A stretch of 64,000 bases of DNA. It comes from Synechococcus sp. 1G10 (GTDB lineage: Bacteria > Cyanobacteriota > Cyanobacteriia > PCC-6307 > Cyanobiaceae). Shown one piece after another: positions 61,051 through 62,755 of this stretch (positions within the stretch are counted from its first letter, which is position 1; each line of letters opens with the position of its first letter). Location of the stretch: the NCBI RefSeq assembly GCF_002252625.1, contig NZ_NQKW01000002.1, positions 186,001 through 250,000 of the forward strand, in the 5' to 3' direction. The position numbers and the translations under genes are program-made. The notes under the pieces are model-generated. The model searched no databases and was not told the origin of the DNA. It saw nothing but the letters and a program-made list of their open reading frames with translations.

Positions 61051-61374
61051 TCAGAGGTATTTGGCGATCGTGCCGGAAAGGGTGTTCTTGGGAACCGCGC
61101 CCACAACAGTGTCAACTTTCTGGCCACCCTTGAAGATCATCAGGGTGGGGATGCTGCGGATGCCGTACTGGCTGGCGACGTTGGGGTTCTCGTCGGTGTT
61201 GAGTTTGTAGACCTTCAGCTTGCCCTCGAATTCCTTGGCGATTTCGTCGACGATCGGGGCCACCATGCGGCAGGGGCCGCACCAAGGGGCCCAGAAATCC
61301 ACCAGCACGGGCACGTCACTCTTGAGCACATCCAGCTCAAAGGAAGCATCGGTGACGGCAGTGGCGCTGGACAT
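61051..61374 (-). CDS. trxA: Thioredoxin
   Basis: A 107-residue thioredoxin with the active site W31-C32-G33-P34-C35 and a cis-Pro region (RSIPTLMIF). The start at 61374 ([11 protein letters not shown]) is supported by family length; a longer frame to 61443 runs into the spacer. It reduces target disulphides in the cytosol under light control via thioredoxin reductase. The Yfr1 sRNA gene is just upstream on the same strand. Confidence 0.97.
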
Positions 61375-61455: not shown

Positions 61456-61517
61456 AAAATGCCCGGGCGCGCCGGGCGGGTTGGTGTGAGGAGTGTGCGA
61501 GCCGGAGCCCCCACACC
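61456..61517 (-). ncRNA. yfr1: Yfr1 small regulatory RNA
   Basis: The guaB-trxA spacer holds the exact Yfr1 core ACTCCTCACAC on the minus strand (61494-61484), unpaired between two hairpins. 5' hairpin: GTGTG pairs with CACAC (or GTG with CAC, which frees the whole core), one mismatch, then GGGC pairs with GCTC (one G-U pair) around a C-UCCG-G tetraloop. 3' hairpin: GCCCGG pairs with CCGGGC around CGCGC (61461-61477), followed by ATTTT, a Rho-independent terminator. The total is about 62 nt. The gene position between guaB and trxA is the known one for picocyanobacteria. In Prochlorococcus Yfr1 base-pairs with porin (som) mRNAs. The exact 5' end is inferred. Confidence 0.93.
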
Positions 61518-61588
61518 TTGAGGTTAACGCCCATCTTCGCCGCGATTCTGTCGTTTCAGGCCGGAATCAACAGCCCAGGTGCGGGGGG

Positions 61589-62755
61589 TTACTTACCCAT
61601 GCCCAGCTGCTGGGCTTTCTGATACACCTTCCCCTCGGTGAGCAGGGATGGGGCCACCACCACCTCGACCTGTTGCATCTCCTTGATGGTGCGCGCACCA
61701 AGAGTGCCCATCGAAGTACGCAGGGCGCCGAGCAGGTTCTGGGTGCCGTCGTCGAGGCTGGCCGGCCCGCGCAGGATCTTCTCCAGACTGCCAGTGGTTC
61801 CCACGCTGATCCTGGTGCCCCTGGGCAGCACCGGACTGGGGGTGGCCATGCCCCAGTGGAAGCCTCGCCCGGGGGCTTCGCTGGCCCGCGCGATCGGCGA
61901 GCCGATCATCACCGCATCGGCGCCGCAGGCGATGCATTTGCAGATGTCACCACCGGTGACGATGCCGCCGTCGGCGACGATCGGCACGTAAACACCTGTC
62001 TCCCGCTCGTGATCGTCGCGGGCGGAGGCGCAATCGGCCACCGCCGTGGCCTGGGGGATGCCCACGCCCAGCACGCCCCTTGACGTGCAGGCGGCGCCGG
62101 GGCCGATACCCACCATCACGGCGGCCGCGCCCGCGCGCATCAGCTCGAGAGCCACGTCGTAGGTGACACAGTTGCCGATCACCACGGGAATGCCGAAATC
62201 ACGGCAGAGGGTGGCCAGATCGAGGGTCGCGCGTCCGGCCGGGCCGATGTGATCGGTGGAGACCACCGTGGCCTGGACGAAGAAGAGGTCAGCGCCAGCT
62301 TCTGCCACCGCCTGGCCGAAGCGCAGGGCCGCGGCTGGGGTGGCGCTGACGGCGGCGATGCCACCGGCGGTCTTGATCGCCGCAATGCGCTGGCGGATCA
62401 GGTCTTCGCGCACGGGCTGGGCGTAGAGCTCCTGCATCAGGGGCACGAAGGCCTCCTTGCCCACCGCAGCGATGCGATCCAGGATTGGATTCGGGTCGTC
62501 GTAGCGGCACTGGACCCCCTCCAGGTTCAACACCCCCAGGGCCCCGAGCCGGGAGAGTTCCACCGCCATCGATACATCCACCACACCGTCCATGGCGCTG
62601 GCGATGATCGGGATTTCCCTCTCGATGCCACCGATGGTCCAGCGGCTATCGGTCACCTCGGGATCCACGGTGCGACCGCCGGGTACCAGGGCGATCTCGT
62701 CGATCCCATAGGCGCGGCGGACGGTTCGGGATCGGCCTAACTGAATGGACACCAC
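61589..62755 (-). CDS. guaB3: IMP dehydrogenase-like protein, GuaB3 type
   Basis: A 388-residue (beta/alpha)8 protein starting [23 protein letters not shown], a hallmark of the cyanobacterial/actinobacterial GuaB3 branch that lacks CBS domains. The catalytic-Cys loop is [15 protein letters not shown], and the flap contains [18 protein letters not shown]. Typical IMPDH would oxidise IMP to XMP; GuaB3's exact role is debated. Two GTG starts (62755 and 62752) differ by one residue. The downstream spacer carries Yfr1. Confidence 0.93.

Follow-up and report, generated by a model that had tools for sequence, protein, structure and literature searches.

The DNA analysed here, a window of 64,000 nucleotides from Synechococcus sp. 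1G10, carries on its minus strand, at the customary site, a gene for Yfr1, a regulatory small RNA well known from cyanobacteria. We put at roughly 95% the probability that this is an ordinary Yfr1 orthologue, which would be transcribed from its own promoter as an RNA of about 57 nt, would direct its core against porin mRNAs and be titrated by Yfr2, and would need no structural switch to do so. The original prediction had recognised Yfr1 from the letters of this locus, and the search with the Rfam Yfr1 covariance model (RF01116) that it had proposed as a check gave a match above the gathering score (59.8 bits against 38) at 61514-61458 on the minus strand, in which all 59 model positions (1-59) are aligned, the invariant core is present and the E-values, 2.4e-9 for the window and 3.0e-11 for the genome, lie far beyond chance. 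The span initially proposed, 61456-61517, was the right locus but overshot the match by 2-3 nt on either side. The model finds a single Yfr1 copy in this genome, and finds the RNA in 9/9 genomes of the genus and in 248 of the 300 examined from the family. Its minus-strand position, with guaB3 on one side and trxA on the other, likewise read correctly at the outset, is secured by profile matches to both flanking genes (Table 1); all three genes run in the same direction, which is the usual, if not universal, setting of Yfr1, and the order guaB-yfr1-trxA has been described for most cyanobacteria (PMC2190773). The host is a freshwater picocyanobacterium closely related to Synechococcus sp. J7-Johnson, with 98% identity between their GuaB3 proteins, and a search of phage records for similar DNA found none. 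It is very improbable that the element is merely the terminator region of guaB3 or the leader of trxA and not a separate RNA: its neighbours on both sides do share one direction, and it does end in a terminator-like hairpin, but it matches the full Yfr1 model with its invariant core, and yfr1 has a start site of its own in MED4, MIT 9313 and WH 8102, strains in which trxA starts approximately 100 bp downstream of the yfr1 3′ end (PMC1242208). The locus thus adds a well-supported freshwater picocyanobacterial Yfr1 gene, for which the genome also offers porin and Yfr2 partners that can be tested.

Table 1. Features of the Yfr1 locus and its neighbours (window coordinates).
Feature	Position	Strand	Evidence
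Yfr1 small RNA, about 57 nt	61458..61514	-	RF01116, 59.8 bits; 5′ end (61514) inferred by homology to MIT 9313, where it is mapped
5′ hairpin, 3 bp + G.G mismatch + 4 bp, C(UCCG)G loop	61495..61514	-	covariance-model alignment, folding, comparison of 25 distinct hairpins
Invariant single-stranded core ACUCCUCACAC	61484..61494	-	sequence, retention in relatives, folding from 61514
3′ GC hairpin of Rho-independent terminator, then ATTTTGTCTT	61461..61477	-	terminator scan and Rfam alignment
Putative -10 element TAACCT, 6 nt ahead of 61514	61521..61526	-	inferred by alignment with the MIT 9313 region
guaB3, upstream neighbour (gene end 61589..61592)	61589-62755 (whole gene)	-	TIGR01304, 515 bits
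trxA, thioredoxin, downstream neighbour	61051..61374	-	TIGR01068, 137.6 bits

The arrangement noticed from the letters, a core between two hairpins followed by a T-run, was recovered in the sequence itself, in the Rfam alignment and in the terminator scan. The core, ACTCCTCACAC in DNA letters, is directly preceded by the hairpin arms GUGGGGGC and GCUCGCAC on either side of UCCG, and the terminator hairpin downstream is made up of six GC pairs ahead of its U tail. By homology, the RNA would be a stable transcript whose two hairpins hold the core open, and the 5′ hairpin, which lies flush with the 5′ end and bears a UNCG-class loop, probably shields it from decay. The stem of this hairpin consists of GUG/CAC, the G.G mismatch and GGGC/GCUC, with the UCCG loop on top. 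That the loop is of the UNCG class and closed by a C-G pair agrees with the initial reading; such loops (with U, A or C as N) occur in 13 of 25 distinct family hairpins and at 49/64 loci. As these hairpins, all flush with the core, were chosen by their GTG...CAC ends, the selection itself accounts for part of the conservation seen in the three outermost pairs. A mismatch at stem positions 4 and 17 (61498 and 61511 in the window) persists in 23/25 distinct hairpins, the exceptions being one C-G pair and one G-U, while its letters change among relatives (C.A, A.A, G.G, G.A, C.U). Our literature search for work joining Yfr1 with the term tetraloop found none; two terminal tetraloops in Yfr1 were already described by Axmann 2005 (PMC1242208), and Voss 2007 described the loops as unconserved, with one mismatch allowed in the 5′ helix. 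Given these descriptions and the 13 hairpins of the same class, the UNCG loop is a common trait and no peculiarity of the present copy.

It had also been proposed that a GTGTG/CACAC register, overlapping the first bases of the core, gives the RNA two alternative foldings and thereby tunes its pairing with targets. The register is present in the DNA, but it depends on 61516-61515, two bases that precede the start of the model match, and the alternative foldings would need the RNA to start at 61516 or earlier. The best guide to the start is MIT 9313, where yfr1 was mapped by RACE to 1220973..1221029 (Axmann 2005, PMC1242208); the model match in the genome that we take as MIT 9313 (G078) has exactly these coordinates, and its yfr1 begins with the G of GUGAGGG, the counterpart of 61514 in the alignment. 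Alignment likewise places a putative -10-like box 6 nt upstream in both, TAACCT here and TAGTAT in MIT 9313; a sigma-70 promoter scan returned no promoter, TAACCT at 61521..61526 included. Folding was carried out from six 5′ ends. A start at 61514 leaves the core 94-100% unpaired, whereas an RNA begun at 61516 has the first two core bases paired; with a start at 61517 a GGUGUG/CACACC fold competes, and the core as a whole is unpaired to only 31-68%. These folds speak for an RNA that starts within 61516-61519, and in which GUGUG/CACAC or GGUGUG/CACACC pairing hides part of the core and so tunes the choice of target, yet we consider it very unlikely, since the mapped 5′ end of the orthologue is the base homologous to 61514. 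Comparison of the two bases upstream of the stem tells against it as well: among 49 distinct sequences GT precedes the stem in 16, against 16.5 expected from the frequencies at the two positions (27/49 x 30/49), a count equal to chance and hence no sign of selection on the extra pairing, and within the genus GT is found in 6/9 genomes and CT in the other three. A pyrimidine directly precedes the stem in 46/49 distinct sequences, which fits a position immediately ahead of a start site. Moreover, the two core bases that could be hidden are used only in the Yfr2 duplex and not in the predicted porin duplexes. On the strength of the folding and of this comparison the switch was rejected. It probably does not exist, since the GU at 61516-61515 most likely precedes the RNA start; the original prediction had seen a genuine property of the DNA, but the bases required are most likely missing from the RNA. 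A real fold switch would matter for how a constitutive small RNA is tuned, and the evidence is against it.

For the ordinary Yfr1 orthologue favoured here, the guess that porin mRNAs are targets was borne out at the level of prediction. Two clustered SomB-type porin genes on contig C79, the first of them matching NF033921 with 294.7 bits, both carry GUGUGAGG ahead of the start codon, with GTGTGAGG just upstream of it, and the Yfr1 core is predicted to pair with GUGUGAGG at the ribosome-binding site and so block translation. The predicted duplexes between the open linker of Yfr1 and the two porin mRNAs have energies of -15.7 and -19.4 kcal/mol as compared to shuffle means near -8, energies that were matched by 5/500 and 0/500 shuffles, respectively. 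In other genera a start was identified for 34 porins, 29 of which have GTGTGAGG within 30 nt upstream; as GAGG is also a Shine-Dalgarno element, however, the evidence for Yfr1 pairing comes from the GUGU part alone. Across the genome there are 13 cases of GTGTGAGG within 14 nt of an ATG, as compared to 5 for the control, and only the two porins among these 13 looked like true gene starts; one further such site precedes a 359-aa frame (L137). The pattern TGTGAGGAG occurs 13 times in the genome as compared to 8 for the reversed pattern, and beyond the core-bearing elements none of these occurrences was a convincing start-codon site. A copy of the core 11-mer on contig C9 (L120) was rejected, as it folds into nothing stable. 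A third porin, of the OprB type on contig C13, has no GTGTGAGG site; inspection by eye showed an AT-rich palindrome-like AATCATAATGATAACCATT upstream of it (L128 3130-3170) and an adjoining histidine-rich GTPase-like gene, which suggests that this porin may be under metal-dependent control. In two genomes in which the model found no Yfr1 (L202 in G046, L207 in G016) the porins still have GTGTGAGG ahead of the start codon, and for that reason the motif may also serve Yfr10-like RNAs. The proposed antagonist, Yfr2 (Cyano-1, RF01701), is encoded by a single gene in the genome, on contig C58 (L121 1446-1515, 48.6 bits); near its 5′ end lies GUGUGAGGAGU, whose complementarity to the Yfr1 core is exact (11/11) in 9/9 genomes of the genus, and by which it would be expected to titrate Yfr1. 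Experiments for MED4 established that Yfr1 represses a porin leader and that Yfr2 relieves this repression (PMC6778093), while in Nostoc pairing through the core was shown with other envelope genes (PMC6974561).

A part of this work that merits a specialist's time lies outside the window. Between the two C79 porin genes, approximately 55 nt past the first stop codon, the core reappears in the 13-nt loop of a 13-bp hairpin (L122 1484-1526, -21.7 kcal/mol), with a terminator-like hairpin downstream. The hairpin is at the same place in 9/9 genomes of the genus (relatives L144 and L170-L177), with ACTCCTCACAC in the loop in six and TCTCCTCACAC in three, and the porin gene that follows it always has the complementary GGTGTGAGG ahead of its start codon. 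A search of the 291 other genomes of the family for the exact hairpin (25-mer, up to 3 mismatches) found none; looser searches matched other genera, and the idea that the motif is genus-specific was accordingly rejected. In those genera 14/58 distinct porin 3′UTRs (the first 150 nt past the stop codon) contain CCTCACAC, which is complementary to the porin ribosome-binding site; 100 dinucleotide shuffles gave 0.42 on average and at most 2. The 58 UTRs are related by descent, however, and the 14 are not independent events. The enrichment is confined to one strand, GTGTGAGG being found in none of the same 58 UTRs. In several UTRs (L178, L180, L183, L186, L221) CCTCACAC lies in a hairpin loop, and in others it adjoins a terminator; L258 is also among the UTRs with the motif. 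The Yfr1-type seed in these 3′UTRs, CCUCACAC, is thus often in a hairpin loop and is complementary to the ribosome-binding sites of the same and neighbouring porins. It is conceivable, and we offer it tentatively as somewhat less probable than its opposite, that the seed forms an arm of the Yfr1 circuit inside the porin mRNAs, where a Yfr10-like RNA or the mRNA region itself might repress porin translation or titrate Yfr2. A literature search of titles and abstracts found nothing on Yfr1-type seeds in porin 3′UTRs. If expressed and active, the motif would amount to a built-in porin feedback.

Among known systems, the closest counterpart is Yfr1 of Prochlorococcus MIT 9313, which has the same core, two-hairpin layout, length of 57 nt, location between guaB and trxA and UNCG-class loop. 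The two differ in the letters of the loop (UCCG here, UACG in MIT 9313) and of the stem mismatch (G.G here, A.A in MIT 9313), both of which vary freely across the family. Yfr1 RNAs are abundant and 54-69 nt long, and the RNA of about 57 nt predicted here by homology would fall within this range. The Yfr10 family has the 11-nt core in common with the present locus; however, in Yfr10, which adjoins Yfr2 in high-light Prochlorococcus, the core sits in a hairpin loop (PMC6778093), whereas here it lies between two hairpins, and the hairpin of this genome that does resemble Yfr10 is the one elsewhere, on contig C79. Yfr2 (RF01701), the partner of Yfr1, pairs with the core and carries its complement instead of the core itself; this complement is exact (11/11) in the present genus, in contrast to MED4, where it contains a bulge and a mismatch (PMC2518516).
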